DNA of 64,000 nt from Bradyrhizobium diazoefficiens (GTDB lineage: Bacteria; Pseudomonadota; Alphaproteobacteria; Rhizobiales; Xanthobacteraceae), in the NCBI RefSeq assembly GCF_016599855.1, contig NZ_CP067041.1:5394001-5458000 (forward strand), written 5' to 3'. A program made the position numbers and the translations under genes. Numbering within the stretch: the first letter of the stretch is position 1; the number at the start of each line of letters is the position of its first letter. The notes beneath the pieces were generated by a model. It was not told the DNA's origin, searched no databases, and was given only the letters and a program-made list of their open reading frames with translations. Shown piece by piece: positions 2,904-25,502 of the stretch.

Positions 2904-3365
2904 TCAGAGCGGGATGACAGCGGTGGCTTCGATCTCGACACGCGCCGCTTTCTCCACAAGACGGACGACCTGGACCAGCGCCATCGCGGGATAATGCGCA
3001 CCGAAGACCGTACGGTAGACCTTGCCGAGCTCCTTCAGATTCGTCTGGTATTCGTCCATGTCGACGACGTACCAGGTCAGACGCACCAGATGCTCGGGCC
3101 GCGCACCGGCCTCGGCAAGGATTTCCGCGATGTTGCTCAGCGTCTGGCGCACCTGCGCGACAAAGCCATCCGCGAGACGCTCCTCCGCATCCCAGCCGAT
3201 CACTCCGCCGGTGACGACGATCCGCCCTTCGGCAGCCATGCCGTTAGCATAGCCCTTGGGCATCGGCCAACTGGAGGGCTGGAGCACCTGCACCTTCGAG
3301 CGGGTCTCGTCATCGTCGGTCGGCAGCACCGCGAGCGGTGGGCCTTTCGGCGTCGTCATGGACAA
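2904..3365 (-). CDS. RidA family (YjgF/YER057c/UK114) protein
   Basis: A 153-residue RidA-fold protein with the family features GRIVVTGGVIGWD, a central helix region (QTLSNIAEILAEAG) and a C-terminal VEKAARVEIEATAVIPL segment. RidA proteins hydrolyse reactive enamines/imines to ketones plus ammonia. It sits 15 bp downstream of the aromatic CoA ligase gene on the same strand, so it is probably translated from the same transcript. In a 2-aminobenzoyl-CoA pathway it could help remove the amino group after ring reduction; this is inference. The TTG at 3365 is better placed relative to a GAGG sequence; ATG 3359 is an alternative. Confidence 0.85.
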   Translation of the reverse strand: MSMTTPKGPPLAVLPTDDDETRSKVQVLQPSSWPMPKGYANGMAAEGRIVVTGGVIGWDAEERLADGFVAQVRQTLSNIAEILAEAGARPEHLVRLTWYVVDMDEYQTNLKELGKVYRTVFGAHYPAMALVQVVRLVEKAARVEIEATAVIPL

Positions 3366-3380
3366 TTCGTGATCCTCATC

Positions 3381-5066
3381 TCATTCTGCCGCGACACCCG
3401 AGGACGCCGCCTGCGCCAATTGCCGCAAGGCGAAGCGTTTCAACTTGCCGGTCTCGGTCTTCGGCAGTTGCGTTACGAACTCGATCGCGCGCGGATATTT
3501 GTACGGCGCGATCTCGCGTTTGACATGCTCCTGCAAGTCGGCTGCGAGCTTTGCATCCGGCGTCACGCCAGGTGCGGCAATGACATAGGCCTTCACAATC
3601 ATCCCGCGCGCCTCGTCCGGCGCACCGATGACACCGCACTCAGCGACGGACGGATGCGTGAGCAGCGCGGCTTCCACATCCGTGCCAGCGATATTGTATC
3701 CGGATGACACGATCATGTCGTCGGAGCGCGACTGGTACCAGAAATAGCCGTCGCTATCCATGAGATAGGTATCGCCGCTGATGTTCCAGCCGTTCTGGAC
3801 ATATTTCCGCTGCCGCTCGTCGGCGAGATAGCGGCAGCCGGTCGGCCCGCGCACCGCGAGCTTGCCCATCGTGCCCGGCGGCAAATCATTGCCGTCATCG
3901 TCGACGATCTTCGCCTCATAGCCGGGCACGGGCTTGCCGGTCGCGCCTGGACGGATTTCGTCCTCGGTCGCGCTGATGAAGATGTGCAGCAGCTCGGTCG
4001 AGCCAATCCCGTCCATCAATTTGATACCGGTGGCCTTCAGCCAGGCATCGAATGTCGGCTTGGGCAGCGTCTCGCCGGCGGAGACGCATTTTCGCAGTGA
4101 GGAAATGTCATGGCCCGGCAGCTTACTGATCATGGCGCGATACGCGGTCGGTGCCGTGAAGCAGACTGTGGTTTTGTACTGCTCGATCGCCGACAGCATG
4201 TCGTCCGGCGTCGTCTTCTCCAGAACGACGAAGGAGGCGCCAATATGCATGGGGAACAGCACGCCGCCGAAACCGAATGTGAAAGCGAGCGGCGCGGAGC
4301 CGATGAAACGGTCCTTCTGTTCGGCCCGCAAGATGTTGCGCGCGTAGCCGTCGCACACAGCCAGCATGTCCCGGTGGAAATGCATGGTGCCCTTGGGATC
4401 GCCGGTCGTGCCCGACGTGAAGGCGATTAGGCAGATATCGTCAGCGGCGGTATCGATCGCCGCAAAGTCAGCGCTCGCATCGGCGATCAGTGCCTCGAGC
4501 GAGTCGGGAGCACCGTTGCCCCAATAGACCACGTGTTTGAGACCGGGCGCAGCCAGCTTCGCCTTCTCCATCTCATCCGAGAGTTTTCCGTCGCAGAGCG
4601 CGAGCGTGATCTCCGCTTTCTGGATCGGATAGGACAGCTCCTTGGCGCGCAGCAACGGCATCGTCGCCACGCAAATGCCGCCGGCCTTGATCACCGCAAG
4701 ATAAGTCGCAACCATCATCGGACTGTTGGCGGAGCGCAGCAGCACGCGTCCACCGGTGACGAGACCGAGCTTGCCGACGAGCACGCTGGCGATGCGGTTC
4801 ACCAGCGCCTGCAGTTCGCGGTAGGTGTAGCTGACGGCGGGACTGATGACGCAAGGCGCATCCCCGTGCCCTTGTTCGACCCAGCGATCGAGAAAATAGC
4901 TGACGCAGTTCAATCGCGGCGGATATTGCAGCTCCGGCCGCGTGAAGATGAACTCCGGCCAGAGCTCGGGCGGCGGCAGATGCTGCCGCGCGAACGTGTC
5001 GGCATGGGCGGTCGCAGCATTTGCGTCATGCGAGCCCGAGAATTGAACCTTGGCGGCGTTGGCCAT
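3381..5066 (-). CDS. benzoate/2-aminobenzoate-type CoA ligase (AMP-forming)
   Basis: A 561-residue adenylate-forming enzyme. The phosphate loop FTSGTTGDPKGT lies near residue 217, the GIGSTELLHIF motif near 350, the hinge SRSDDMIVSSGYNI near 460, and the catalytic lysine motif PKTETGKLKR near 543. The family activates an aromatic acid to its CoA thioester using ATP. Proximity of a fused aminobenzoyl-CoA monooxygenase/reductase and RidA makes 2-aminobenzoate the best substrate guess, with benzoate or salicylate as alternatives. The start has a strong AAAGGAG site. A near-perfect palindrome at 5119-5132 lies about 52 bp upstream, so control by the adjacent MarR gene is likely. Confidence 0.88.
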   Translation of the reverse strand: MANAAKVQFSGSHDANAATAHADTFARQHLPPPELWPEFIFTRPELQYPPRLNCVSYFLDRWVEQGHGDAPCVISPAVSYTYRELQALVNRIASVLVGKLGLVTGGRVLLRSANSPMMVATYLAVIKAGGICVATMPLLRAKELSYPIQKAEITLALCDGKLSDEMEKAKLAAPGLKHVVYWGNGAPDSLEALIADASADFAAIDTAADDICLIAFTSGTTGDPKGTMHFHRDMLAVCDGYARNILRAEQKDRFIGSAPLAFTFGFGGVLFPMHIGASFVVLEKTTPDDMLSAIEQYKTTVCFTAPTAYRAMISKLPGHDISSLRKCVSAGETLPKPTFDAWLKATGIKLMDGIGSTELLHIFISATEDEIRPGATGKPVPGYEAKIVDDDGNDLPPGTMGKLAVRGPTGCRYLADERQRKYVQNGWNISGDTYLMDSDGYFWYQSRSDDMIVSSGYNIAGTDVEAALLTHPSVAECGVIGAPDEARGMIVKAYVIAAPGVTPDAKLAADLQEHVKREIAPYKYPRAIEFVTQLPKTETGKLKRFALRQLAQAASSGVAAE

Positions 5067-5118
5067 CGCACGCTCCTTTGCGTATGGAAAGCACCCGGCA
5101 GCACTAACTGAGGAAACA

Positions 5119-5132
5119 TTTTAGGCTTAAAA
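5119..5132. promoter_or_regulatory. putative MarR operator, site 1 (upstream of the CoA ligase)
   Basis: TTTTAGGCTTAAAA is a 14-base near-palindrome between the MarR gene and the ligase gene it precedes on the minus strand. It matches five other sites in this cluster (5758, 5827, 11346, 13094, 13172). Operator function is inferred from position, symmetry and recurrence. Confidence 0.65.
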
Positions 5133-5214
5133 CAATTCGACGCAATAGCAGATTTTGGCATCCCAAGCGTTTTCGTGCGGCAAAAGGGGATTGGCGGCTG
5201 CCAGGCCGGCGGAC

Positions 5215-5706
5215 TTAAGGCCGGCGACGCGCGGCAGATTTCTGCGCCGAGGCCTTGGTCTTGGCCAGCAGCCGCATCAGTTCGCGCACGTCCTTCGGCG
5301 TCAAATCGGCGAAGAGATCGGCAATCCAGGTTTCGTGTTCCGCGGCCATCCTGCGAAACTCGGCGCGACCGAGCTTTGTGAGACGGATCACCTGGACGCG
5401 GCGGTCGGTCTCCGAGGTGCGGCGGTCGAGATGACCGGATTCCACCAAACGCTCGACCAGGCCGGTGACATTGCCGTTGGACACCATCATGCGCTTGGAG
5501 ACGTCCGACAGCGTCATGCCATCGGGCGCCTTGTCGAGTTGGGCCATCAGATCGAAACGGGGCAGCGTGACGTCAAAGCGCTGCCGCAGGCGGCCGCGGA
5601 CCTCGCCTTCGATCAACGTGGTGCAGGTGAGCAGACGCAGCCACAGCCGAAGCTCTTCGGCATGGTCCTCCGGCGTTTCGACTGCCTTGGTTTCAGAATC
5701 GAGCAT
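5215..5706 (-). CDS. MarR family transcriptional regulator
   Basis: A 163-residue protein with a MarR winged helix: LSDVSKRMMVSNGNVTGLVERL forms the recognition region and RTSETDRRVQVIRLT the wing with its typical D-R pair, flanked by dimerisation helices. MarR proteins commonly repress aromatic catabolism and are released by the aromatic acid or its CoA thioester. The gene lies between the ligase and a divergent binding-protein gene. Two operator-like sites (5758, 5827) lie in its upstream region and a third (5119) downstream, suggesting autoregulation and control of the whole 3-19 kb cluster. Confidence 0.9.
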   Translation of the reverse strand: MLDSETKAVETPEDHAEELRLWLRLLTCTTLIEGEVRGRLRQRFDVTLPRFDLMAQLDKAPDGMTLSDVSKRMMVSNGNVTGLVERLVESGHLDRRTSETDRRVQVIRLTKLGRAEFRRMAAEHETWIADLFADLTPKDVRELMRLLAKTKASAQKSAARRRP

Positions 5707-5757
5707 CTCGATCTAGTCATTTGCGGCCGGCACTGGCGCCGGCGGATTCCCACAATA

Positions 5758-5771
5758 TTTTCAGCTTCAAA
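5758..5771. promoter_or_regulatory. putative MarR operator, site 2 (upstream of marR)
   Basis: TTTTCAGCTTCAAA lies 51 bp upstream of the MarR start codon in the divergent region between marR and the binding-protein gene. It fits the six-site consensus with two changes in the half-sites. A role in autoregulation is inferred. Confidence 0.55.
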
Positions 5772-5826
5772 TAAATCCGGGCCGGCCGCAAGTCCAAAGC
5801 TGCAACAATCGACCGCACGTGAATTT

Positions 5827-5840
5827 CTTTAGGCTTCAAA
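5827..5840. promoter_or_regulatory. putative MarR operator, site 3 (marR / binding-protein divergent region)
   Basis: CTTTAGGCTTCAAA followed by TAATT. It is the second operator-like site in the 278 bp divergent region and lies about 144 bp upstream of the substrate-binding protein start. It is closely similar to site 2, 69 bp away. Confidence 0.55.
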
Positions 5841-5984
5841 TAATTGGCGCGCCGCTTGCATGCGCCGCCGTCCGCAAGATGGTGACGCCTTGAGGGTAGC
5901 TTGCCGCGAGTGCCGTCATCGGCATAAGCTCGGATCGGAGTACGTGGCTTGCAGAACGAGCCCTGATGTCGAGGGGGACAGATC

Positions 5985-7160
5985 ATGAAGACGCAACTGA
6001 CCTTGGCTGTGACTGCCTTGTTGCTCGGCACCGCAATGAGCCCTGCCTTTGCCCAGGAGAAGATCAAGCTCGGCGTGATCGTGACCCTGTCGGGACCTGC
6101 CGCCGCGCTTGGCCAGCAAGTTCGTGACGGCTTTGCGCTCGCGGTGAAGGATCTCGGCAGGAAGATGGGTGGCCGCGATGTCGAGGTTATCGTGGTCGAC
6201 GACGAACTGAAGCCCGACGCGGCCGTGACCAAGGTCAAGGGCCTGCTCGAGCGCGACAAGGTCGACTTCGTGGTCGGCCCGATCTTCTCCAACATCCTCC
6301 AGGCGATCCATCGGCCTGTCACGGAATCGAAGACCTTCCTGATCAGCCCCAATGCCGGCCCGTCGACTTTTGCCGGCAAGGACTGCAACCCGTTCTTTTA
6401 TGTGACGTCGTACCAGAACGACCAGGTGCACGAGATCCTCGGCAAGGTCGCGCAGGATCGCGGCTACAAGCGCATGTACCTGATGGTGCCGAACTACCAG
6501 GCCGGCAAGGACTCGGTCGCCGGCTTCAAGCTCGACTACAAGGGCGAGATCGTCGAAGAATCCTACATGCCGCTGAACACGCTGGACTTCCAGCCGGAAC
6601 TTTCCAAGATTTCGTCGCAGAAGCCGGATGCGGTGTTCACGTTCATGCCGGGCGGTCTCGGCGTCAACCTCGTCAAGCAGTACAAGCAGGCTGGTCTCGC
6701 CGACAGCATTCCGGTGCTCTCGGCCTTCACGGTGGATGAATCGACACTGCCGGCGCAGCAGGACGCGGCCGTCGGCATGTTCGGCGGCGCGAACTGGGCA
6801 CCCAATCTCGACAATTCCCAGAGCAAGAAGTTCGTCGCCGCCTATGAGGCCGCCTATAGCAGCGTGCCCGGGACCTATGCCATGCAAGGGTACGACGCGG
6901 CGATGCTGATCGACAGCGCGGTCAAAGGCGTAAAGGGTGATCTCTCCAACAAGGACGCCGTGGCAGCGGCCCTGAAGAAGGCGGACTTCACGTCCCTGCG
7001 CGGTTCGTTCAAGTTCAACACCAACGGCTATCCGATCCAGGATTTTTACCTGACAAAGGTCGCCAAGCGCCCGGACGGCAAATTCCAGACCGAGATCGTC
7101 CAGAAGGTCTTTGCGAATTACGGCGACCGCTACGCCAAGGACTGCAAGGCGGCGAACTGA
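5985..7160 (+). CDS. branched-chain amino acid/aromatic-type ABC substrate-binding protein
   Basis: A 391-residue periplasmic binding protein of the Leu/Ile/Val (Peripla_BP_6) class. It has a clear Sec signal peptide (about residues 1-23, ending SPAFAQ) and then the typical opening KIKLGVIVTLSGPAAALGQQVRDG. Relatives in aromatic clusters bind benzoate-like acids, so uptake of the cluster's substrate is inferred. No permease or ATPase genes of this class accompany it in the window, so it must share a transporter encoded elsewhere. A GAGGGGGA ribosome site precedes the ATG. Transcribed divergently from marR, with operator-like sites in between. Confidence 0.88.
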   Translation: MKTQLTLAVTALLLGTAMSPAFAQEKIKLGVIVTLSGPAAALGQQVRDGFALAVKDLGRKMGGRDVEVIVVDDELKPDAAVTKVKGLLERDKVDFVVGPIFSNILQAIHRPVTESKTFLISPNAGPSTFAGKDCNPFFYVTSYQNDQVHEILGKVAQDRGYKRMYLMVPNYQAGKDSVAGFKLDYKGEIVEESYMPLNTLDFQPELSKISSQKPDAVFTFMPGGLGVNLVKQYKQAGLADSIPVLSAFTVDESTLPAQQDAAVGMFGGANWAPNLDNSQSKKFVAAYEAAYSSVPGTYAMQGYDAAMLIDSAVKGVKGDLSNKDAVAAALKKADFTSLRGSFKFNTNGYPIQDFYLTKVAKRPDGKFQTEIVQKVFANYGDRYAKDCKAAN

Positions 7161-7188
7161 GGCCGCGTCGCGTTAAGGGAGGACTGCA

Positions 7189-7647
7189 ATGAAGAGCGAA
7201 ATCACCGGCATCACGCGGGCCAATGAAGGCATCCAGGGCATCTCCTGGAACATCCTCGGCCAGACCTATGTGCCGAAGAGCAATACCGAAAACAGCTTCT
7301 CCTGGCACGCCACGCTGCCGCCGGGCACATTCGTGCCGCCGCACATCCATCCCGACCAGGACGAGTATCTCTACATGCTGGAGGGCAAGCTCGACTTCAT
7401 GCTCGGCAATTCCGAGGCGCAGGCAACGCCGGGAGACCTCATCCGTCTGGGCATGGGTGTGCCGCACGGCATCTTCAACAAGTCGGACCAGACTGGCAAG
7501 GTGCTGTTCTGGGTCTCGCCGACCCGCAAGCTGTTCGACCTGTTCTGGGGCCTCCACAACATGAAGGAACAGAAGCCTGAGGACGTGGTGGCGATGGCGG
7601 CCGAGTTCAACATCCACTTCCTGCCGCCGCCGCCCGGCGCCGGCTAG
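7189..7647 (+). CDS. cupin domain-containing protein
   Basis: A 152-residue single-domain cupin. The first motif is PPHIHPDQDEYLYMLEGKLDF (histidines and glutamate in the usual metal-ligand spacing) and the second is GDLIRLGMGVPHGIFN. Cupins of this size include dioxygenases, isomerases and binding proteins, so the reaction is not assignable. It starts 28 bp after the binding-protein gene with a GGGAGG ribosome site, so the two form an operon and probably belong to the aromatic pathway. It converges on the flavin monooxygenase gene with only 8 bp between stops. Confidence 0.82.
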   Translation: MKSEITGITRANEGIQGISWNILGQTYVPKSNTENSFSWHATLPPGTFVPPHIHPDQDEYLYMLEGKLDFMLGNSEAQATPGDLIRLGMGVPHGIFNKSDQTGKVLFWVSPTRKLFDLFWGLHNMKEQKPEDVVAMAAEFNIHFLPPPPGAG

Positions 7648-7655
7648 CGGTCGTT

Positions 7656-8906
7656 TTAGGCCCGCACCGCCGCGAGCCCCGGTACCGCGGCGAAGCCAGC
7701 TTTGGTGGCATAGCCGCGGACGATGGCCTCGCGCTGGGAATAGCTCAGCACGTTGTCGACATTGTCGAACCCGTCGGGCGCCAGTTGCTCGACGGCGTCA
7801 ATGACGCCTTCGGGGCCGCCGCGGCGGTTGGAGCGGACGATATCGGCGGTCATCGGCAGCCGCTTCTTCTCGTACTGGATCAACGCCTGGCGCGGATGCT
7901 CGGCGCGCACCAGCGCGTCGGCAAGACAGCGCGCGTCGAGTATTGCCTGCGAAGCGCCATTGGAGCCAACCGGATACATGGGATGCGCGGCGTCGCCGAG
8001 CAGCGTGACGCGCCCCGATGACCAATACGGCAAGGGATCACGATCGCAGGTGGGATATTCGTAGAACTCGGGCGTCGCCGAAATCAGGCTCTTCACGTCG
8101 ATGTACGGCACGGAGAAGCGCGCGACATGCGGCATCAGCTCCTCGCGCCGGCCAGGCCGCGACCAGTCCTCTTTCCGCGGCGGCGGCGCATTGCCCTCAC
8201 CCACCCTCACCAGGACCGCCCAATTGGTCAGACGGCTCGCCGGGCTCGATCCCTCCGCGATCGGATAGACCACCACCTTGGCATTGAGGCCGCCAGCGAC
8301 GATCATCGACTTGCCGGTCAGGAACAGTGGCCAGTCACGCGCACCGCGCCACAGCATCAGGCCGTTCCAGCACGGCGGCCCCTCGTTCGGGAACAGCGTG
8401 TCGCGAACCCGCGAATGGATGCCGTCGGCGCCGATCAGGATATCGCCGCGCGCGGTGTGAATGTGCGCACCGGCACGATCGAAGAAATAGGCAGTGACAC
8501 CGCCTTCGTCCTGCGTGAACGCACCAAGCCGGCAGCCGGTGTGGATTGCATCTGCCCCGAGCCGCTCTTCGACAGCGCGATGGATGACGCTCTGAAGGCG
8601 GCCGCGATGAATCGAGAACTGCGGCACGTCATGGCCAGCGTCCACGCCGCGGGCTTCGCGCCAGACCTCCTGGCCATGCCGGTTGAGATAGTAGAGCTGG
8701 TCGGTACGGATCGCGACGTCGTCGAGCTTTTGCAGCAGGCCAAGGCTGGCAAGCTCGCGCATGGCATGCGGCAGCGTGTTGATACCGACGCCGAGCTCAC
8801 GGATCGTATCGGATTGCTCGAAAATCTCGCACCCGATGCCACGGGCCCGCAGCATCAGAGCCGTGGTGAGACCACCGATGCCACCACCGACGATAATCGC
8901 CTTCAT
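7656..8906 (-). CDS. FAD-dependent aromatic-ring monooxygenase (class A flavoprotein)
   Basis: A 416-residue single-component flavoprotein hydroxylase. The N-terminal dinucleotide motif is VGGGIGGLTTALMLRARG, the middle has the ILIGADGIHSRVRD (DG) motif, and GRVTLLGDAAHPMYPVGSNG is the second FAD motif. Members such as salicylate hydroxylase use NAD(P)H and oxygen on an aromatic ring. Substrate is unknown; the neighbourhood suggests an aromatic acid feeding the CoA pathway or an alternative route. ATG 8906 with GGAG upstream is preferred to the in-frame GTG 8921. It lies 53 bp downstream of the fused oxygenase/reductase gene on the same strand. Confidence 0.87.
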   Translation of the reverse strand: MKAIIVGGGIGGLTTALMLRARGIGCEIFEQSDTIRELGVGINTLPHAMRELASLGLLQKLDDVAIRTDQLYYLNRHGQEVWREARGVDAGHDVPQFSIHRGRLQSVIHRAVEERLGADAIHTGCRLGAFTQDEGGVTAYFFDRAGAHIHTARGDILIGADGIHSRVRDTLFPNEGPPCWNGLMLWRGARDWPLFLTGKSMIVAGGLNAKVVVYPIAEGSSPASRLTNWAVLVRVGEGNAPPPRKEDWSRPGRREELMPHVARFSVPYIDVKSLISATPEFYEYPTCDRDPLPYWSSGRVTLLGDAAHPMYPVGSNGASQAILDARCLADALVRAEHPRQALIQYEKKRLPMTADIVRSNRRGGPEGVIDAVEQLAPDGFDNVDNVLSYSQREAIVRGYATKAGFAAVPGLAAVRA

Positions 8907-8959
8907 CGCCCACAACTCCACTCAATACACAGGCAACGAGGTTAACGTTGCACGGGCGA

Positions 8960-11311
8960 TCACTCCGCCGCAAGCGGCTTTGTCGCCTCCGCCTTCAGCT
9001 CCGCTCGAGTCTTGGGCTTAGCCTTAATTCGCAACTCCTCGAGATCCTGCCGATCACGTTCGCTGTTGCGGAAAATCTGGTCCTTGCCGGGCAGGTATTG
9101 CGGCGGGCAGAACGCGTCACTTGCCCCGTACCAGGCAGCGGCTCTCATGGTGAAGAAGGGATCGACCAGATGCGGACGCCCGAGCGCGACGAGATCCGCC
9201 CGGCCGGCGGCCAAAATGGTGTTGGCTTGGTCTGCCGTCGTGATATTGCCGACGCACATGGTGGCCACGCGCGCCTCGTTGCGTACCTGGTCCGAGAACG
9301 GCGTCTGGAACATGCGCCCATAGACCGGCTGCGCGTCGCGCACAGTCTGCCCAGTAGAGACGTCGACGAGGTCAACGCCGGCCTCGGCGAACGCACGCGC
9401 AATGGCCACCGCGTCATCGCCGGTGATGCCGCCGTCGGCCCAGTCCGTCGCGGAAATACGCACCGACATCGGCTTGTGCTTCGGCCACACCGCCCGCAGC
9501 GCCTCAAAAATCTCTAGCGGGAAGCGCAGCCGATTTTCGAGCGAACCGCCATACTCGTCGGTGCGCGTATTAGTCAGCGGCGAGATGAAGCTCGCGAGCA
9601 GATAGCCATGGGCGCAGTGCAGCTCGAGCATATCGAAACCGCAACGCTCGCCGCGCTCGGCCGCCGCGACGAAACAATTCCTCACGGCGCTCATGCCGGC
9701 GCGGTCGAGCTCGCGCGGCACCTGGCTGTCGGGGAAATAGGGCAGCGGCGAAGCCGAGAACACCTCCCAGCCGCCCTCCTCCAGGGGACGATCCATGCCG
9801 TCCCACATCAATTTGGTCGCCCCCTTGCGGCCAGCGTGCCCGAGTTGCAGGCAGATTTTCGCAGCGGAGTTGCCATGGACGAAATCCACGATGCGCCGCC
9901 ATGACGCTTCCTGCTCATCGTTCCACAGCCCGGCGCAGCCGGGCGTGATACGGGCATCGCGACTGACGCAGGTCATCTCGGTAAAGATGAGGCCGGCGCC
10001 ACCGATCGCGCGCGAGCCGTAATGCACGAGGTGAAAGTCGGTCGGGACGCCCTCTTTCGCCGAATACATACACATCGGCGACACCACGGCGCGGTTGGCG
10101 ACCTCCATCTCGCGCAGGCGGAATGGCTGGAACAGCGGCACCATCGGCTTTTCGGTGCTCACGTCGAAGCCGTTGCTGCGCACTTGCCGGGCGAATGACT
10201 TCTCGACTTCCGCGACGAAATCGGGCGCGCGGAGCTTCAGATTATCATAGGTGATCGCCTTCGAGCGCGTCATCACGCCGAAAGCGAACTGCACGGGATC
10301 GAAATCCCAGAAGCGATCGACATGCTCGAACCAGACCAGCGAGACGTCAGCGGCGTGCTGGGTCTTCTCGACCTCCTCGCGGCGACCGTGCTCGTAAACA
10401 TCCAGCGCGGCATTGATGCTCGGTGCCTTCTGCATCGCCTCGGCCAGCGCGATCGCATCTTCCATCGCGAGCTTGGTGCCAGAGCCGATCGAGAAATGCG
10501 CGCTCGCCTTGGCGTCGCCGAGCAGGACCATGTTGCCCTTGACCCAGCGCCTGCTGCGGATCATCGGGAAATTGCGCCACATCGAACGGTTGGTGAGCAG
10601 CTTGTGCCCATCGAGGAACCAGCCGAAGATCTCGGCCATCCGGGCGGCGGACTGGGCCTCGTTGAGCCCCGTCAGGCCCGCGCGCTCGAACGTCTCCGGA
10701 TCAGTCTCGAAGATCCAGGTCGAGTGACCGGCCTCGTACTGATAGGCATGAGCGATGAACGGCCCCCACTCCGTCTCTTGAAAGATGAAGGTGAAGGCAT
10801 CGAGCGGCCTGGTCGAGCCCATCCAAGCAAATTTGTTGGTGCGAAGGTCGACTTCCGGTTCGAAGTGCTCGGAATATTTCTCGCGGAAACGGCTGTTGAC
10901 GCCATCGGCAAGCAGGATCAGGTCAGCCTCGGCAAAGCGCGACTCATCGTCGATATCCACTTCGAAATGCAGGCTGACGCCGAGCTCCCGCGCCCGCTCC
11001 TGCAGGATCAGGAGCAGTTTTTGCCGCGAGCAGCCGCAAAAGCCGTTGCCGCCGACCCGGTGCACCGTGCCGCGAAAGTGCACGGCGATGTCATCCCAAT
11101 AGGCGAACTCCTGGGTGATGCGGCGGTAGCTCGGAAGATCGTGCTTTTCAAAATTGTCGAGCGTGGCATCCGAGAACACCACGCCAAAGCCGAACGTGTC
11201 GTCAGCGCGATTTCGCTCATACACGCTGATGTCGGCCCTCGGGCGCTGCTTCTTCAGCAGGATCGCTGCGTAGAGACCCGCGGGTCCACCACCGATGATT
11301 GCGACTTTCAT
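8960..11311 (-). CDS. abmA: 2-aminobenzoyl-CoA monooxygenase/reductase-like fusion (FMO + Old Yellow Enzyme)
   Basis: A 783-residue fusion. Residues 1 to about 390 form an FAD monooxygenase ([11 protein letters not shown] at the N-terminus, [20 protein letters not shown] as the second FAD motif). From about 395 to 760 it is an Old Yellow Enzyme-type reductase ([13 protein letters not shown], then [25 protein letters not shown]). This architecture is known from Azoarcus 2-aminobenzoyl-CoA monooxygenase/reductase, which hydroxylates and then reduces the CoA-bound ring; a closely related family is annotated as salicylyl-CoA 5-hydroxylase. With the CoA ligase and RidA nearby, the aminobenzoyl-CoA role is favoured. 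GAGG precedes the ATG and an operator-like palindrome lies 35 bp upstream. Confidence 0.88.
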
Positions 11312-11345
11312 GGGAGCCTCGCCAATCTTCCCGGCAACGAAACTG

Positions 11346-11359
11346 TTTTAAGCCTAAAA
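11346..11359. promoter_or_regulatory. putative MarR operator, site 4 (upstream of the monooxygenase/reductase)
   Basis: TTTTAAGCCTAAAA followed by TAATTTG lies 35 bp upstream of the fusion-gene start. It is the reverse complement of site 1 (5119-5132), so these two are the same palindrome in opposite orientation. It is the clearest site of the set and marks a probable internal promoter. Confidence 0.65.
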
Positions 11360-11408
11360 TAATTTGTTGCAAGTCCCCATTTCAGGCCTTCCCGCAGGAA
11401 GGGGCCGC

Positions 11409-12245
11409 TCAGTCGCCCCTGAAGACCGGCTTGACCTTGTTGGCGAATGCCTCGAAAGCGCGCTCGAAGTCGGCCGTCGTCATGCACAGCGCTTGGGCAA
11501 CGGCCTCCGCTTCGATCGCTTCCTCCACCGACATCGCCCATTCCATCGCCAGCATGCGCTTGGTCATGGTGTTGCCGAAGGTCGGCCCTTCCGCGATCTG
11601 CTTGGCCAGCAGCTGCGCCTGGGCCAGCACCTGCTCCGGCGTGACGATGCGGCTGAAGAAGCCCCAGCGCTCGCCCTCCTCCGCGGTCATGAACCGGCCG
11701 GTGTAAAGAAGCTCGGAGGCGCGGGACTGACCGATGATCCTCGGTAGTATCGCGCAGGCGCCCATATCGCAGCCGGCAAGACCGACCTTGTTGAACAGGA
11801 ACGCCACCTTGGCCCCGCTCGCGGCGAGCCGCATGTCGGACGCCATGGCGATGATCGCGCCGGCACCGGCACAGATCCCCTCGACCGCGGCCACGATCGG
11901 CTGCGGGCAGGCCCGCATCGCCTTAACGAGGTCACCGGTCATGCGCGTGAATGCCGTTAGTCCCTTGGTGTCCATCTTCACGAGCGGGCCGATGATCTCG
12001 AACACGTCGCCGCCCGACGAGAAATTGCCGCCGGCACCGGTGACGACGATCGACTTGACCGCGTCGTCGAAGGCGCAAGCGCGGAAGAAATCCGTCAGTT
12101 CGCGGTAGCTCTCGAAGGTCAGCGGGTTCTTCCGCTCGGGACGGTTGAGCGTCACGGTGGCAACGCCATCGACCACGGCCAGCAGGAAGTGTTGCGGGGA
12201 ATAGTCCGCGAGCGGGAGGGTGACGGGATTGGCTGGTCTGCTCAT
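11409..12245 (-). CDS. enoyl-CoA hydratase/isomerase family protein
   Basis: A 278-residue crotonase. The oxyanion-hole segments are [12 protein letters not shown] near residue 76 and [21 protein letters not shown] near 120. Crotonases hydrate, isomerise or hydrolyse acyl-CoA thioesters. Here it would act on alicyclic or ring-opened CoA intermediates made by the monooxygenase/reductase. An AAGGAG site precedes the ATG. It lies in the same direction as the SDR upstream (43 bp gap) and the fusion gene downstream, so SDR-hydratase-monooxygenase/reductase could form one transcript with an additional internal promoter at site 4. Confidence 0.88.
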
Positions 12246-12288
12246 GCGATCTCCTTAGCTTCCTTGTTCCGCGCTGGCGCCACGCACG

Positions 12289-13050
12289 CTAGATTTCGCC
12301 GCCGGCGACCGCAATCGCCTGCCCCGTGACCGCACTGGCGTTCTCGCTGCACAACCAAAGCACGGCATTCGCCACTTCCTGCGGCGTGATCAGGCGCCCC
12401 TGCGGATTGTGCTTCGCAAGCTCGGCGATCGCCTGCTCGCGGGTTCGCCCGGTCTTCTTCATGATGTTCTCGATGCTCCCGGCCACGAGATCGGTATTGG
12501 TGAAGCCCGGGCACACCGCGTTCACAGTTACGTTGCTGCCGGCCATCTCCAGTGCAAGCGAACGCACGAGACCGAGCACCGCGTGCTTCGCCGCCGTGTA
12601 CGCGCTCACGTAAGCATAACCTTTGAGTCCGGCCGTCGATGCGATCGCAACGACGCGCCCATAGGGGCGGTCCTTCATCCCCGGCAGCACCGCGCTGATG
12701 GCATGGACGACGCCCATGAAATTGACGTCCATCATGCGTGCAAAAAGCGCGCTATCCGATTTTGCGAACGGCGCGGATTCGGCGCTGCCGGCATTGGCGA
12801 TCAGGATGTCGATGGGCTTTCGCGCATGCGCCTCAGTGATGGCTGCCTTCAGCGCATTCTCGTCCGAGACGTCGGCAACTGCTGCATAGTGCGCGGCGCC
12901 TGCGCTCACCGCCTCTTCGAGAGTAGCCGCGTTCCGGCCAAGCACAGTCAGGGTGGCGCCAGCGTCGACAAGGGACGCAGCGATGGCGCGGCCGATGCCG
13001 CGACCGCCACCGGTCACCAGCGCGTGCGGCGAATGCGGCAATCCGGACAT
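12289..13050 (-). CDS. short-chain dehydrogenase/reductase (3-hydroxyacyl-CoA dehydrogenase-type)
   Basis: A 253-residue classical SDR. The cofactor motif VTGGGRGIGRAIA is near residue 12, the NAG motif in ILIANAGSAES near 87, and the active-site serine with the YxxxK pair in SAYTAAKHAV near 155. The C-terminus ends VTGQAIAVAGGEI, typical of FabG-like enzymes. It probably oxidises a hydroxyacyl-CoA intermediate of the aromatic pathway, as in the known 2-aminobenzoate cluster, where a 3-hydroxyacyl-CoA dehydrogenase accompanies a hydratase. An operator-like site (13094) lies 43 bp upstream, making this the first gene of the minus-strand unit. Confidence 0.87.
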   Translation of the reverse strand: MSGLPHSPHALVTGGGRGIGRAIAASLVDAGATLTVLGRNAATLEEAVSAGAAHYAAVADVSDENALKAAITEAHARKPIDILIANAGSAESAPFAKSDSALFARMMDVNFMGVVHAISAVLPGMKDRPYGRVVAIASTAGLKGYAYVSAYTAAKHAVLGLVRSLALEMAGSNVTVNAVCPGFTNTDLVAGSIENIMKKTGRTREQAIAELAKHNPQGRLITPQEVANAVLWLCSENASAVTGQAIAVAGGEI

Positions 13051-13093
13051 GCGCTTGCTCCCTCAAGATCTGTTGATCGTTTCTCCGATATAT

Positions 13094-13107
13094 TTTAACC
13101 TTCAAAT
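13094..13107. promoter_or_regulatory. putative MarR operator, site 5 (upstream of the SDR)
   Basis: TTTTAACCTTCAAA followed by TTTTTG, 43 bp upstream of the SDR start codon on the minus strand. It shares the divergent region with site 6 (13172), giving one site for each diverging unit. Confidence 0.55.
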
Positions 13108-13171
13108 TTTTGCAACGACGACCCCCGATCGACCCGCGAACGTCATCGCGGAAGCGACGGCCTGAAAATTG

Positions 13172-13185
13172 CTTTAAGTATAAAA
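13172..13185. promoter_or_regulatory. putative MarR operator, site 6 (upstream of the hydrolase operon)
   Basis: CTTTAAGTATAAAA followed by TTATC lies 61 bp upstream of the GTG start of the alpha/beta hydrolase. It is the most diverged site at the centre of the palindrome but keeps both outer half-sites. Confidence 0.5.
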
Positions 13186-13246
13186 TTATCTCTTCCCATC
13201 CCCTGCAGGCCTGTTAGCATCACCTGACCAAGCAAAAGGATGTCGC

Positions 13247-14065
13247 GTGTCGCAGCCTGCGCCAATGATAACAAGGGACGGACGCTTCGCCTATGAAGCC
13301 GCAGGCGATCCGGGCGCAACACCCCTGATTTTCCTGCATGGGATCGGCGGCGCGGCGCGGGCCTGGCGGCAGCAGCTTGCCACATTCGGCAATCGTTTCC
13401 GCGCGATCGCGTGGGACATGCCGGGTTATGGCGGTTCGGCGCCGCTCTCCAGCGTCAGCATCGCTGCCATGGCCGATGCGCTTCAGCAGTTCATCGGGCA
13501 GATTGGTGCGAAAAGCCCCATTCTGGTCGGCCATTCGATCGGCGGCATGATCGTCCAGAAATGGCTGGCGCAATCGCCGAAATTCGCGCGCGCTGTCGTC
13601 CTCGCGCAGACCAGCCCGGCCTTCGGCAAGGCCGACGGCGACTGGCAGAAATCATTCATCGCGGCGCGGCTGGGCCCACTTGATCGCGGTGACACGATGA
13701 AGTCGCTGGCGCCTTCCCTGGTGAAGGAGCTGGTCGGCGACGATCCTGATCCCAAGGGAATGGAGCTTGCGCGTGAGTGCATGGCAAGCGTGCCCGAGGC
13801 AAGCTATCGCGCCATGATGCTGGCGTTGATTGGCTTTGATCAGCGCAGCACGCTCAAGGACATTTCAGTGCCGACGCTGCTGCTGTCCGGTTCCAAGGAC
13901 AATAACGCCCCGGCGCCAATGATGGCGAAGATGGCAACCTACATTCCTGCGGCTGAATATGTCGAACTCCCCGGCGTCGGCCATCTCGCCAACCTTGAAC
14001 GTCCCGATGCCTTCGACAAAGCTCTCGGCAGCTTCGTCGACTCCGTCGCCGCAAAACACGGGTGA
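13247..14065 (+). CDS. alpha/beta fold hydrolase
   Basis: A 272-residue alpha/beta hydrolase. It has the oxyanion segment FLHGIGGAARAWRQQL, the nucleophile elbow GHSIGG (serine near residue 96), and a C-terminal histidine in ELPGVGHLANLERPDAF. It may hydrolyse a ring-opening product or a CoA thioester in this pathway; the sequence alone does not say which. The GTG start is preferred because AAAAGGA lies 6 bases upstream; a nearby ATG at 13240 is in another frame. It leads a five-gene plus-strand operon (13247-18972) preceded by operator-like site 6. Confidence 0.87.
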   Translation: MSQPAPMITRDGRFAYEAAGDPGATPLIFLHGIGGAARAWRQQLATFGNRFRAIAWDMPGYGGSAPLSSVSIAAMADALQQFIGQIGAKSPILVGHSIGGMIVQKWLAQSPKFARAVVLAQTSPAFGKADGDWQKSFIAARLGPLDRGDTMKSLAPSLVKELVGDDPDPKGMELARECMASVPEASYRAMMLALIGFDQRSTLKDISVPTLLLSGSKDNNAPAPMMAKMATYIPAAEYVELPGVGHLANLERPDAFDKALGSFVDSVAAKHG

Positions 14066-14072
14066 CTGCGCG

Positions 14073-15362
14073 ATGACCATGCAAGTCAGCACGACTGTCG
14101 ACGCCACTGACAAGGTCCCGCTGGACCCGCCAATCTTCGATCCCGTGGCATTCCGCCTGAACGATGAGCAGGCTCGAATCATTGCGCGTGCGCGGGAGAT
14201 CGGTCAGAGCGTGTTCGCAGGTCGCGCCGCGACCTACGATCGCGAGGCGGTCTTCCCGACCGAGAATTATCGTGACCTGCATCGCGTCGGCCTGCTCGGC
14301 ATCGCTGTGCCGAAGAAGCACGGCGGGCTGGGCGCCAGCTACCAGACCTACGCCCTGGCCGCCGCAGAAATCGGCCGCTATTGCGGCGCGACCGCGCTGA
14401 CCTGGAACATGCATGTCTGCTCGACGCTATGGTCCGGGCCCCTGGCTGATGATCTCGATATGGACGAGGAGACCCGCGCGGAACACGAAAAGCGGCGGGC
14501 CGTCCACTACAAGCGCATCGTCGAGGACGGCGCGATCTATTCGCAGCCCTTCTCCGAGGGCGGCGCGGCGGCCGCGGGCGGCATTGCATTCGGCACGGAA
14601 GCAAAGCCCGTCGAAGCCGGCTGGATCGTCAATGGCAAGAAAATCTTTGCGTCGCTGTCTGGTCACGCGGACTACTACGGCGTGCTGTGCACCGAGATCG
14701 AAGAGGGCGGGAAGGCGTCGCGCCGCAATACGCTTTACCTCGCGATTCCCGCGAACTCGCAAGGCGTTTCCGTGGTCGGCGACTGGGATCCGCTCGGCAT
14801 GCGCGGCACGGTCTCGCGGACCCTGCTATTCAAGGATGTGTTCGTCCCGGACGAATCTGCGCTGATGCCGCGCGGCGTCTATTTCCAGGCCGCAATGCGC
14901 TGGCCCCACATGTTCCTGACGCTGTCGCCGACCTATATGGGCCTCGCGCAAGCCGCTTACGATTTCACGGTGCGCTATCTGCGAGGCGAAGTCCCCGGTA
15001 CGCCGCCGGTCAAGCGCCGGATGTATCCGACCAAGCAGATCGCGGTCGCGCAGATGCAGATCAAGCTTGAGCAGATCAAGGCAGTCTGGTTCCAGACCGT
15101 CACCGAGGCACGCGCCAATCCGAGCAAGGAGCAGGTGCTGCGCGCCTACGCCGCACAATACTCTGTCATGGAAGGCGCCAATGAACTCGCGGCGCTCGCG
15201 ATCCGCACCTGCGGCGGTCAGGCGATGCTTCGGTCGCTGCCGCTGGAGCGTATCTATCGCGACAGCCGCTGCGGCTCGCTGATGCTGCCCTGGACGGCCG
15301 AGCTCTGCCTCGACCGGATCGGGCGCGAGGCGCTGTACGAGGTCGGCGAAACGGACGATTGA
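14073..15362 (+). CDS. acyl-CoA dehydrogenase family protein
   Basis: A 429-residue flavoprotein with the acyl-CoA dehydrogenase order of domains: an N-terminal helical domain, a middle beta domain (IYSQPFSEGG, then GWIVNGKKIFASLSGHADYY) and a C-terminal four-helix domain (GLAQAAYDFTVRYL, then ANELAALAIRTCGG). It probably oxidises a CoA intermediate with FAD. The reading frame is open further upstream inside the hydrolase gene, but ATG 14073 lies just after the hydrolase stop and is preferred. Its TGA stop overlaps the TTG start of the next gene (TTGA), implying translational coupling. Confidence 0.87.
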   Translation: MTMQVSTTVDATDKVPLDPPIFDPVAFRLNDEQARIIARAREIGQSVFAGRAATYDREAVFPTENYRDLHRVGLLGIAVPKKHGGLGASYQTYALAAAEIGRYCGATALTWNMHVCSTLWSGPLADDLDMDEETRAEHEKRRAVHYKRIVEDGAIYSQPFSEGGAAAAGGIAFGTEAKPVEAGWIVNGKKIFASLSGHADYYGVLCTEIEEGGKASRRNTLYLAIPANSQGVSVVGDWDPLGMRGTVSRTLLFKDVFVPDESALMPRGVYFQAAMRWPHMFLTLSPTYMGLAQAAYDFTVRYLRGEVPGTPPVKRRMYPTKQIAVAQMQIKLEQIKAVWFQTVTEARANPSKEQVLRAYAAQYSVMEGANELAALAIRTCGGQAMLRSLPLERIYRDSRCGSLMLPWTAELCLDRIGREALYEVGETDD

Positions 15363-16891
15363 CGGTGGATCTCTGCAGTCTGATCGATCGCAACGCGGCG
15401 TTCGCGCCGGACAAGACGGCCATTGCCTTCGAAGGCGAACGCCTGAGCTACGCGGCGTTCGCCGACCGCATCGAACGGACCGCAACAGCCTTGAAGCAGG
15501 AGTTCGGCGTCAGCCGCGGTGACCGCGTCGCAATCCTGAGCCTGAACCGGCCAGACTATCTGGTCCTGCTCTATGCGTGTGCGCGGCTCGGCGCGATGCT
15601 GGTGCCGTTGAACTGGCGGCTCGCGGTCGCCGAGCAGCTATACATTCTCACCAATGCCGGCGCCAAGGTGTTGGTGCTTGAGCAGGCATTTGAGGGAGTT
15701 TTGTCCGAGCTTGCGCCGGGAACATCTGTTGCCGGGTTCGATTTTGCGCCACCGCGCGGCACGACTTTCGAAAGCGTGCTGGCGCGCAACGGGAGCAGCG
15801 GACGCAACCCGCACACCGATCTGTCCTGCCCGCTGCTCATCGTCTACACGTCAGGGACCACTGGCCGGCCGAAAGGTGCGGTGCTACGCCAGGAGGCGCT
15901 GTTCTGGAACGGCGTCATGAGCCAGCACATGCACAACATGACTTCTGACGATCATGTGCTGACGGTGTTGCCGTTCTTCCATGTCGGCGGGCTCAACATC
16001 CAGACGACCGCGGCGCTCCAGCTTGGTGCGACCGTCACGATCCATGCCCGTTTCACGCCGGACACGGCGCTCGCAGCCATTGAACGGGACCGACCGACCC
16101 TGACAGTCATGGTGCCGACGATCCTCCAAGCCGTCACCGAGCACCCCGCCTGGGCGACAACCGATCTGTCGTCGCTGAAAGCGGTCGCCACCGGGGCGAC
16201 CATCGTGCCGCCGCACCTGATCGATCGCTTTGTCGCGCGCGGCGTGCCGGTGCTCCAGGTTTACGGCTCGACGGAAACCTGCCCCATCGCAATCTACACC
16301 CGTCTCGGCGGCGATCTCTCGCGCACGGGATCAACCGGACTCGCCGGCCTGTGCTGCGATGCGATGGTGATCGACCAGGCCGGCAACAAGGTGCCGGCTG
16401 GCACGCCGGGCGAGATCGCGGTGCGCGGCCCCAACGTGTTCTTCGAATATTGGGGCAATGCGGATGCCACATGCGATGCGCTGCAGGACGGCTGGTATCG
16501 CACTGGCGATATCGGCCTGTGCGAGCCGGACGGCTACTTCTGGGTCCGCGACCGCAAGAAGAACATGATCATTTCCGGGGGCGAGAACGTCTATCCGGCC
16601 GAGGTCGAGCGAGTCCTGCTCGAACATCCAGACGTCAGAGAATGCGCCGTGATCGGCCGGCCAGACCCGCGCTGGGACGAAGTCCCCGTCGCCTATGTCA
16701 TCCGGCGATCCGGCTGCCGGCTCGAAGCGGAGGAGCTGAGAGCACACGTTCAGGCGCAGCTCGCCCGCTACAAGGTTCCGCGTGACATCGTTTTCGTCGC
16801 CGACCTGCCGCGCACGGCGCTTGGCAAGGTCCAGCATTTCCTGCTGAAGCAGCTTGATACGCAGTCGCGCGCGCAAGGAGAAGCATCTTGA
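15359..16891 (+). CDS. class I acyl/aryl-CoA ligase (AMP-forming)
   Basis: A 510-residue adenylate-forming ligase. The phosphate loop YTSGTTGRPKGA is near residue 163, YGSTETCPI near 302, the hinge DRKKNMIISGGENVYPAEVE near 398 and the catalytic lysine motif RTALGKVQH near 481. It differs clearly from the ligase at 3381, so the cluster has two CoA-activating enzymes. The substrate may be an aliphatic or alicyclic acid. It begins with TTG in a TTGA overlap with the preceding stop (GTG 15365 is an alternative), and its own stop overlaps the next TTG start in the same way. Confidence 0.87.
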   Translation: MTVDLCSLIDRNAAFAPDKTAIAFEGERLSYAAFADRIERTATALKQEFGVSRGDRVAILSLNRPDYLVLLYACARLGAMLVPLNWRLAVAEQLYILTNAGAKVLVLEQAFEGVLSELAPGTSVAGFDFAPPRGTTFESVLARNGSSGRNPHTDLSCPLLIVYTSGTTGRPKGAVLRQEALFWNGVMSQHMHNMTSDDHVLTVLPFFHVGGLNIQTTAALQLGATVTIHARFTPDTALAAIERDRPTLTVMVPTILQAVTEHPAWATTDLSSLKAVATGATIVPPHLIDRFVARGVPVLQVYGSTETCPIAIYTRLGGDLSRTGSTGLAGLCCDAMVIDQAGNKVPAGTPGEIAVRGPNVFFEYWGNADATCDALQDGWYRTGDIGLCEPDGYFWVRDRKKNMIISGGENVYPAEVERVLLEHPDVRECAVIGRPDPRWDEVPVAYVIRRSGCRLEAEELRAHVQAQLARYKVPRDIVFVADLPRTALGKVQHFLLKQLDTQSRAQGEAS

Positions 16892-17976
16892 AGATTGCGG
16901 TTCTGGGTGGGGGGAACGGCTCGTTCGCGGCCGCGGGCGATTTTGTGCTGTCGGGGCATGAGGTCCGGCTGTGGCGCCGCGATACCGAACAGGTCGAAGC
17001 ACATCGTGCAGCCGGCTCGCGCATCCTGGTGAAGGACCACAATGGCCAGCACGACGTGAACCTGGCGCTGGTGACTACCGACATCGCCGAAGCCGTTAGC
17101 GGTGTCGAGCTGATCTTGTGCCCCGCTCCCGCTTTCGCGCAACAAGACATCGCCCGGCGCCTCGCGCCACATCTGCGGGACGGCCAGGTCGTGTTTCTGC
17201 CGCCTGCGACGTTCGGCTCGATGATCTTCGCGCAGGCCGCGCGGGATGCCGGCAACCGCGCCAAGGCTAGCTTTGCCGAGACCGGGACGCTGCCTTGGCT
17301 CACTCGCAAGCACGGGCCGTTCGAGGTTGCGATCACGATCCGCGCCAAGCGGCTGCCGGTCGGCGTGTTCCCGCTCGATCAGGCACTACATGCGCTCGAG
17401 GTGATTGGACGCGCCTTCCCTGGCGTCATCGAGCCCTGCGGTGATGCGCTATCTGGCGCGCTGATGAATGCAGGCTGCATCATCCATCCACCGCTGATCG
17501 TGATGAACGCGGGCCCGATCGAGCATTTCGAGCGGTGGGACATCCACAAGGAGGGCACGCAAGCCGCAATCCGGCGCGTGACCGACGCCCTCGACGCCGA
17601 GCGGATCGCCGTGCGCGAGGCGCTTGGGTATGGCGCACCGCATTTTCCGCTTGCTCACCATTACGCCAAGGAAGGCGAGTCCTGGATGTATGGCCGTGGC
17701 TCACATGATCGCCTGACGGATTCCGGAGACTGGCGCGAGCGGATCGTGCTGACCGAGCACCGCTACATGCGCGAAGATCTGCGGCTCGGGCTATCGCTGC
17801 TGGTGTCCGCCGCTGGGCTGGCGGGCGTCGCCACGCCGCTCGCCAAGGCGTTCTTGGCCATCGGCGGTGCAATCTGCGGCGAGGAATTTACACAAGGCGG
17901 CCGAACGTTGGAGACGCTGGGGCTCGGCAAGCTTCACAAGCCCGAATTGCAGATGCTGCTTCGCAAAGGATTCTGA
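16888..17976 (+). CDS. opine (octopine/nopaline) dehydrogenase family oxidoreductase
   Basis: A 362-residue protein. It has an N-terminal Rossmann motif VLGGGNGSFAAAGDF and a C-terminal helical domain containing NAGCIIHPPLIVMNAG and FPLAHHYAKEGESWMYGRGSHDRL, as in octopine/nopaline dehydrogenases. The family forms or oxidises secondary amines linking an amino acid and an oxo acid. It is unexpected in a CoA catabolic operon; it could process an amino-containing intermediate, but that is inference. The TTG start follows an AAGGAG site and overlaps the ligase stop (TTGA). The next gene begins 3 bp after its stop. Confidence 0.85.
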   Translation: MKIAVLGGGNGSFAAAGDFVLSGHEVRLWRRDTEQVEAHRAAGSRILVKDHNGQHDVNLALVTTDIAEAVSGVELILCPAPAFAQQDIARRLAPHLRDGQVVFLPPATFGSMIFAQAARDAGNRAKASFAETGTLPWLTRKHGPFEVAITIRAKRLPVGVFPLDQALHALEVIGRAFPGVIEPCGDALSGALMNAGCIIHPPLIVMNAGPIEHFERWDIHKEGTQAAIRRVTDALDAERIAVREALGYGAPHFPLAHHYAKEGESWMYGRGSHDRLTDSGDWRERIVLTEHRYMREDLRLGLSLLVSAAGLAGVATPLAKAFLAIGGAICGEEFTQGGRTLETLGLGKLHKPELQMLLRKGF

Positions 17977-17979
17977 CCG

Positions 17980-25325: not shown

Positions 25326-25502
25326 CGTGCCCACTCCGTTGCTCCGGCGCCGACCGACGCCACCCAAACCCGCCAGCCCAAATGTTTCATGGTTCAAACA
25401 CTCAGGCAAGCCATGCATGCCGCCCCGGTTTCGCTGCGAGATGCGTTGTGTATGGTGGGCAGCGGTCGCGCGGCGCTGCGCCGCGACAGAAGGAGGCAAC
25501 CT

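Follow-up and report, generated by a model that had tools for sequence, protein, structure and literature searches.

Near the start of a 64-kb window (contig NZ_CP067041.1, positions 5,394,001 to 5,458,000) of the 7.10-Mb single-contig genome of Bradyrhizobium diazoefficiens lies a gene cluster that handles aromatic acids as coenzyme A (CoA) esters, and its intergenic DNA carries six copies of a palindrome. The locus raises the question of which protein binds these copies, which genes they govern and which compound works the switch. The answer is very probably that the MarR-family protein encoded in the cluster at 5215–5706 (MarR1 in what follows) represses 2-aminobenzoyl-CoA catabolism and also controls the production of anthranilate (2-aminobenzoate) from tryptophan; within it, binding by MarR1, repression and the effector are what we infer. 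Gaps and strands divide the cluster into six units, namely lig1-ridA, marR, sbp-cupin, mor-fmo, sdr-ech and abh-acad-lig2-odh-hcdh. An earlier, sequence-only reading had placed one site ahead of each transcription unit, and this agrees with the gene gaps, the units themselves being deduced from gaps and strands.

All six sites named in that reading are present, at 5119, 5758, 5827, 11346, 13093 and 13172, the fifth one base away from the 13094 that had been noted, and the sites at 5119 and 11346 were confirmed to be exact reverse complements of each other. The AT-rich flank that had been described as a TAATT tail also exists, and it is actually the outer arm of a longer dyad. With the 14-bp core widened by five bases per side, the motif carries 29.7 bits of information instead of 19.0, and the full operator element is predicted to be a 24-bp dyad, approximately AATTATTTTAAGCTTAAAATAATT, with one copy ahead of each of the six units. 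Operator 1 (5114–5137) stands ahead of lig1-ridA, operator 2 (5753–5776) ahead of marR as a putative site of autoregulation, operator 3 (5822–5845) upstream of sbp-cupin, operator 4 (11341–11364) ahead of mor-fmo, operator 5 (13088–13111) ahead of sdr-ech and operator 6 (13167–13190) ahead of the operon at 13247–18972. The distance from the core to the start codon is 35 bp for the monooxygenase, about 40 bp for the short-chain dehydrogenase (SDR), about 50 bp for both the ligase and marR, about 60 bp for the hydrolase and about 145 bp for the binding protein. Palindromic operators close to the regulator's own promoter and to those of its targets are a trait of the MarR family, and the predicted sites are arranged in this way.

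With up to three mismatches, the pattern TTTTARGCYTAAAA was found seven times in the window, compared with 0.82 expected from 100 dinucleotide shuffles, the largest of which gave 4. The copies at 5119 and 11346 match it without a mismatch, those at 5758, 5827 and 13093 with two each, and those at 13172 and 38565 with three each. The last of these was missing from the earlier reading. A symmetric 24-bp matrix scores the six sites at 30–39 bits and the next-best place, 25385, at 19.0 bits. When each site in turn was left out of the matrix, no non-site position in the window scored above it. Both 25385 and 38565 were rejected as further window operators, being missing from the whole-genome profile list described below; the former (25385–25398) falls at the start of an open reading frame (ORF) at 25389, near a binding-protein-like ORF on the opposite strand. 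That the six sites are merely similar-looking AT-rich promoter cores would fit their position in AT-rich intergenic DNA, where they touch −35/−10-like boxes, and is nevertheless extremely improbable in view of their symmetry: the six 24-mers hold 6–9 of 12 possible dyad pairs (six at 13172, seven at 5758, and at least seven in five of the six), while control 24-mers average 3.2 when drawn at random from the window and 3.6 when AT-rich.

The boxes that the operators touch were read by eye. A conserved TTGC box is found at lig1, mor and sdr, in the arrangements TTGCgt-16-TAAAAT, TTGCaa-16-TAAAAC and TTGCAA-17-TATATC; it lies upstream of operator 1, and operator 5 sits between TTGCAA and TATATC. 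At these three units, the operator occupies the spacer and extends to the −10-like box, which is consistent with a steric repressor. By eye, no −35/−10-like pair as clear as these was seen at the other three sites. Among 403 relatives, the 80 best named loci carry a MarR 96–100% identical to MarR1. Conservation was measured by aligning the four intergenic regions with their gene edges (80, 80, 63 and 77 sequences, window included). Identity to the window over the six 24-bp sites was 0.878–0.992, compared with region means of 0.78–0.83. Operator 6 reached 0.992 (rank 2 of 205 windows), operator 1 0.985 over 80 aligned sequences (rank 8 of 158), operator 5 0.953 (rank 25 of 205), operator 3 0.943 (rank 27 of 288) and operator 4 0.927 over 63 sequences (rank 12 of 108). 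The 80 named loci are all Bradyrhizobium except for one record labelled 'Frankia sp. RB7', which has the cluster in part, its MarR being 98–99% identical to that of the window, and looks like a mislabelled Bradyrhizobium assembly. In Bradyrhizobium sp. Ghvi, a second marR copy (98%) was seen with only a weak SDR match among the cluster genes around it and no site of at least 18 bits.

Beyond close relatives, the sites keep to the units even where the units have moved. Gene order varies widely among 40 loci of the family (seven of the same genus), yet 39 of them hold at least one site of at least 22 bits, and sites stand ahead of mor, sdr, marR, sbp, lig1 and abh despite the rearrangement. These loci contain 106 matches of at least 22 bits, 95 of them ahead of a mapped cluster gene by less than 300 bp and none inside one, whereas 40 column-permuted matrices of equal composition and dyad symmetry gave a mean of 0.125 matches (maximum 1), which again argues against ordinary promoter cores. 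Among the 80 Bradyrhizobium loci, 79 hold a site of at least 22 bits, and 454 real matches compare with a permuted mean of 12.8. Where MarR proteins of other genera are 40–53% identical, 13 of 17 loci have a site of at least 17 bits, the exceptions being L241, L244, L250 and L251.

The motif also tracks MarR from genome to genome. Of 146 genomes of the genus, 141 carry MarR1 (E ≤ 1e-50) and 140 the motif (E ≤ 0.05), the motif being found in 139 of the 141 with MarR1 and in one of the five without it (Fisher 4e-6); that one, G212, is an assembly 89% complete in about 720 contigs. Across 198 genomes of the family (MarR at E ≤ 1e-30, motif at E ≤ 0.05), the motif was present in 71 of 100 with MarR and two of 98 without, and, when the 22 genomes used as sources of training sites were removed, in 53 of 78 compared with two of 98 (Fisher 4e-23). 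Outside the genus, 60 of 89 MarR-carrying family genomes have it. The sequence-only reading had proposed a regulon of MarR1 that includes the operon 13247–18972; the persistence of the sites ahead of rearranged units and the shared distribution of motif and MarR both bear this out.

How far the regulon reaches was addressed with a profile, R1, built from 33 sites in the window and in relatives' clusters, from which sites at kynurenine (kyn) genes and at the cluster of a paralogous MarR had been excluded. R1 scored 150 of 239 first-look candidates in the genome, and a weak site could escape it. On the whole genome at E ≤ 10, it returned 20 matches at 11 distinct places, each connected with the window's own cluster, that of the paralog, a kyn operon or an araC/cupin pair; such a confinement to linked functions in 7.1 Mb is a further point against promoter cores. 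Six places are those of the window cluster (5399113, 5399753, 5399821, 5405340, 5407087 and 5407167), operator 4 being the top-scoring place of the search; three belong to the paralog cluster (3040182, 3040371 and 3048554), one to kyn (3550513) and one to araC/cupin (5856944). The weakest four (5407167, 3040371, kyn and araC/cupin) have best E-values of 0.77–1.1 taken alone, so their support comes from comparison with relatives and not from the score. A comparison of matrix hits with the rate in random DNA had been set beforehand as the refuting test, and the whole-genome run left the regulon standing. Its extent had been drawn too small: the cluster units were right, and the regulon is now predicted to reach outside the window, to kyn and araC/cupin, through a 24-bp operator.

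Simpler probes were of less use. With one mismatch, YTTTARGCYTMAAA gave 16 strand-wise matches across the genome and its reversed control 11, which makes it a poor probe, and none of its other places (L125–L129) exceeded 10.8 bits under the 24-bp matrix, so that they were discarded as noise. With three mismatches, AWNNNYTTWANGCNTWAARNNNWT gave 106 places compared with 161 for its control, and only those with zero to two mismatches (11 places among the matches listed) were used. Two of the three new places, L175 (12.8 bits) and L179 (5.3 bits), were rejected on score, and the third, L180 (24.5 bits), was retained.

The kyn site at 3550513 lies 69 bp ahead of an alpha/beta-hydrolase gene, followed by tryptophan 2,3-dioxygenase (TIGR03036) and kynureninase (TIGR01814), both above their model cut-offs. 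The hydrolase matches an NCBI 'hormone-sensitive lipase' model and, from its position in the operon, would be the kynurenine formamidase. A site of at least 19 bits was present in 34 of 38 loci with KynA (11 family matches and 27 more from the 30 closest of 111 matching genus genomes). Among 22 loci examined of the 28 KynA places with at most 71% identity, kyn genes adjoin marR or lig1 in 15, one further locus (L277) has them next to lig2-odh-hcdh, and 19 have a kyn site of at least 17 bits. In some relatives, both kyn and araC/cupin lie inside the marR cluster, so that the scattered parts of the B. diazoefficiens genome are a single locus there.

The satellite site at 5856944 (24.5 bits, with only five of 12 dyad pairs) lies between an AraC-type gene (PF14525, PF12833) and a cupin gene. 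Of the loci examined for kyn, 14 have both araC and a second cupin, and each has a 25–26-bit site next to them, within the cluster or adjoining it. One could therefore suppose that the sites belong to a different regulator, for instance the AraC-type protein encoded at L180:424–1476, and that MarR1 is a bystander. AraC-family sites are usually direct repeats, whereas the sites here are dyads; araC is about 450 kb from the cluster in this genome, and the motif tracks MarR across the family. These points make the AraC proposal very unlikely, and MarR1 is retained as the regulator.

A number of observations weigh against control by MarR1 as set out so far. Operator 2, ahead of marR itself, is the least conserved of the six and only moderately so (identity 0.878, rank 64 of 288 windows), and a scan with a generic sigma-70 consensus found no promoter at the sites and did not pick the boxes read by eye. 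On the 80 closely related Bradyrhizobium loci, at least one permuted matrix reached 349 matches. In the family, 29 of 100 genomes with MarR lack the motif at E ≤ 0.05 (under stricter filters), and the two without MarR that have it are G020 and G054 (80–81% complete). Because of common descent among the species, the Fisher values suggest more independence than there is, and motif and marR are inherited together in one cluster; both points weaken the co-occurrence figures. The kyn site is missing from four of the 38 KynA loci, all of other genera, and from L258, L259 and L277 of the more distant set, and that of B. diazoefficiens itself, at 22.3 bits, is below most relatives.

A different qualification comes from the paralog, MarR2, encoded at 3047831–3048334 of the same genome and 52% identical to MarR1 over the matched part. 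In its cluster (L123, 3040000–3056000), ligase, acyl-CoA dehydrogenase, thiolase and RidA-like genes were seen, and the dyad occurs there three times (37.4, 26.4 and 26.1 bits). In one other genome (G064), the neighbour of MarR2 is a second fusion of a monooxygenase with an old yellow enzyme (OYE) (L238:7053–9371, PRK08255, 1343 bits), and no such gene was found within L123. These sites raise the alternative that the six operators are those of a MarR subfamily and that MarR1 and MarR2 bind each other's sites, two repressors thus acting on six sites, to which we give somewhat less than an even chance. In its favour, a site of at least 22 bits stands beside the MarR2 gene in 27 of the 30 closest genus loci (own included; 43 genomes matched), the other three scoring 21.7, 13.2 and 13.2 bits, the sites at more distant MarR genes in 13 of 17 loci of other genera point the same way, and the recognition helices are alike, MVSNGNVTGL in MarR1, where it is largely kept in relatives, and MVSAGNLTPI in MarR2. 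Set against this, the four bases at the dyad centre are not used equally often, AGCC being commonest in the MarR1 cluster, AGCT at kyn, and AGCA and AGTA at MarR2, which could separate the regulators; AGTA is also present in the MarR1 cluster. No sampled genome of the genus has MarR2 without MarR1, so the specificity of MarR2 is not isolated there. Cross-regulation between the two is plausible. The widest picture is a more tentative one, for which roughly one chance in three seems fitting: a single operator, used by two paralogous MarR repressors, would join the conversion of tryptophan to anthranilate with 2-aminobenzoyl-CoA catabolism and with the related second CoA cluster. At L239 and L240 (genomes G122 and G105), a MarR of 45–49% identity has a Rieske-type ORF in its vicinity, and L239 also encodes an SDR and the small subunit of a ring hydroxylase; these could be anthranilate dioxygenase or auxin loci. 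The MarR there was considered as a candidate IadR2, an auxin-catabolism regulator; the ORF compared with protein families and solved structures, L239:7737–8240, is a frame other than that of the MarR and had no match.

The genes under MarR1 point to the substrate. MarR1 itself (minus strand) has the winged-helix domain of its family, with PF12802 at 47.2 bits (cut-off 27) and PF01047 at 39.2 bits (cut-off 24.6), and its nearest solved chain is 3boq. The aryl-CoA ligase (lig1, 3381–5066, minus) is probably a 2-aminobenzoate-CoA ligase; it matches TIGR02262 at 387 bits (cut-off 375.25), and its best solved relative is the anthranilate-CoA ligase 4wv3 (352 bits), with benzoate-CoA ligase at 272 bits. 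A RidA-type protein (2904–3365, minus; PF01042) follows 15 bp behind it. The fusion protein at 8960–11311 (minus) is of the 2-aminobenzoyl-CoA monooxygenase/reductase type, with PRK08255 at 1140.7 bits (cut-off 1078), a VioD-like half and an OYE-like half, as in the flavin monooxygenase/OYE reductase fusion of Azoarcus evansii; the NCBI model is named salicylyl-CoA 5-hydroxylase/oxidoreductase. Beside it are a flavin adenine dinucleotide (FAD) monooxygenase (7656–8921, minus; PRK07538 above cut-off), an enoyl-CoA hydratase family protein (11409–12245, minus; PRK08258 above cut-off) and a short-chain dehydrogenase (12289–13050, minus; SDR families, none of the 25 listed above its own cut-off). 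The plus strand encodes an ATP-binding cassette (ABC)-type substrate-binding protein (5985–7160; like TIGR03407, far under its cut-off), a cupin protein (7189–7647; a weak TIGR04366 match, under cut-off) and the operon 13247–18972 for a hydrolase, an acyl-CoA dehydrogenase, ligase 2, an octopine-dehydrogenase-like enzyme and a 3-hydroxyacyl-CoA dehydrogenase, whose genes overlap by four bases at 15359–15362 and 16888–16891 and are three bases apart between 17976 and 17980. The binding protein is of the ABC importer type, with no gene for a permease or an ATPase behind it in its unit.

The substrate is more likely to be 2-aminobenzoate than benzoate, because the ligase is near anthranilate-CoA ligase, the monooxygenase is of the 2-aminobenzoyl-CoA/salicylyl-CoA fusion type and the kyn genes are linked to the cluster. 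In the absence of an inducer, a MarR1 dimer would sit on the 24-bp promoter dyad and block the six units, and with them the uptake, CoA activation, dearomatisation and beta-oxidation of 2-aminobenzoate, as well as marR itself. Incoming anthranilate, once activated, would lift the block, either 2-aminobenzoyl-CoA or anthranilate itself releasing the repressor, and the operator at the distant kynurenine operon would place tryptophan-to-anthranilate conversion on the same switch. Kynurenine was put aside as the effector: KynA (E ≤ 1e-60) is rare, in 11 of 149 family genomes, and MarR (E ≤ 1e-30) common, in 100 of 198, with samples and thresholds that differ, and the inducer is therefore expected to be one that genomes lacking kyn also have, as they would anthranilate or its CoA ester. 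Between these two, analogy with BadR and CouR leans modestly towards 2-aminobenzoyl-CoA. If it is the inducer, the pathway would, through one of its own intermediates, turn on the formation of its precursor from tryptophan; such a positive loop, if true, would drain plant- or peptide-derived tryptophan into anthranilate catabolism. The analysis thus offers a precise operator and a predicted regulon of 11 places for a regulator found in nearly all sampled genomes of the genus, linking tryptophan breakdown to the CoA-dependent anthranilate route. B. japonicum is described in excerpts of PMC9613470 as converting the plant hormone auxin to anthranilate, and the switch may therefore bear on auxin turnover at roots.

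Among known systems, as far as excerpts of the sources describe them, BadR is a MarR protein of R. palustris and Aromatoleum sp. CIB that represses a CoA-dependent ring-acid pathway, with an acyl-CoA intermediate as the CIB effector (PMC9795900). MarR1 is likewise proposed to repress such a pathway, for a different substrate; the BadR operator CAAN4TTG occurs in only two of the six sites (5827 and 13093), off the dyad centre, and the likeness is one of system description. CouR of Rhodococcus jostii RHA1 is a MarR repressor released by an aryl-CoA whose operator overlaps promoter boxes (PMC4737184); it serves the p-hydroxycinnamate pathway and shares with the window an operator over promoter-like boxes and the proposed aryl-CoA release, and it is named in none of the 44 solved-structure chains that match MarR1. 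The A. evansii pathway runs from 2-aminobenzoate-CoA ligase through monooxygenase/reductase to beta-oxidation, the series predicted for the window cluster, and the excerpts of its source describe no regulator, operator or kyn link (PMC4539516). The kynurenine pathway of Pseudomonas aeruginosa is controlled by KynR (PMC4938989), an Lrp/AsnC protein and so of another family, whereas the kyn operon here bears a MarR-type dyad common to the anthranilate-CoA pathway. IadR and IadR2 are MarR regulators of an auxin catabolism that ends in anthranilate and is known in B. japonicum; IadR binds auxin, and for IadR2 no ligand or DNA site is identified in the excerpts (PMC9613470, PMC11630574). They resemble MarR1, by system description, in acting around anthranilate, and the auxin ligand of IadR is unlike the one proposed here. 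Among the matches listed in the open-licence literature, there was no MarR operator for 2-aminobenzoyl-CoA genes, no MarR-controlled kyn operon and no operator of this type shared by two paralogous MarR proteins. Aromatic-CoA pathways under MarR control are an established type of system, which the predicted sites extend in two unexpected directions, to an operon for converting tryptophan to anthranilate and to a second MarR whose operator is of the same kind.

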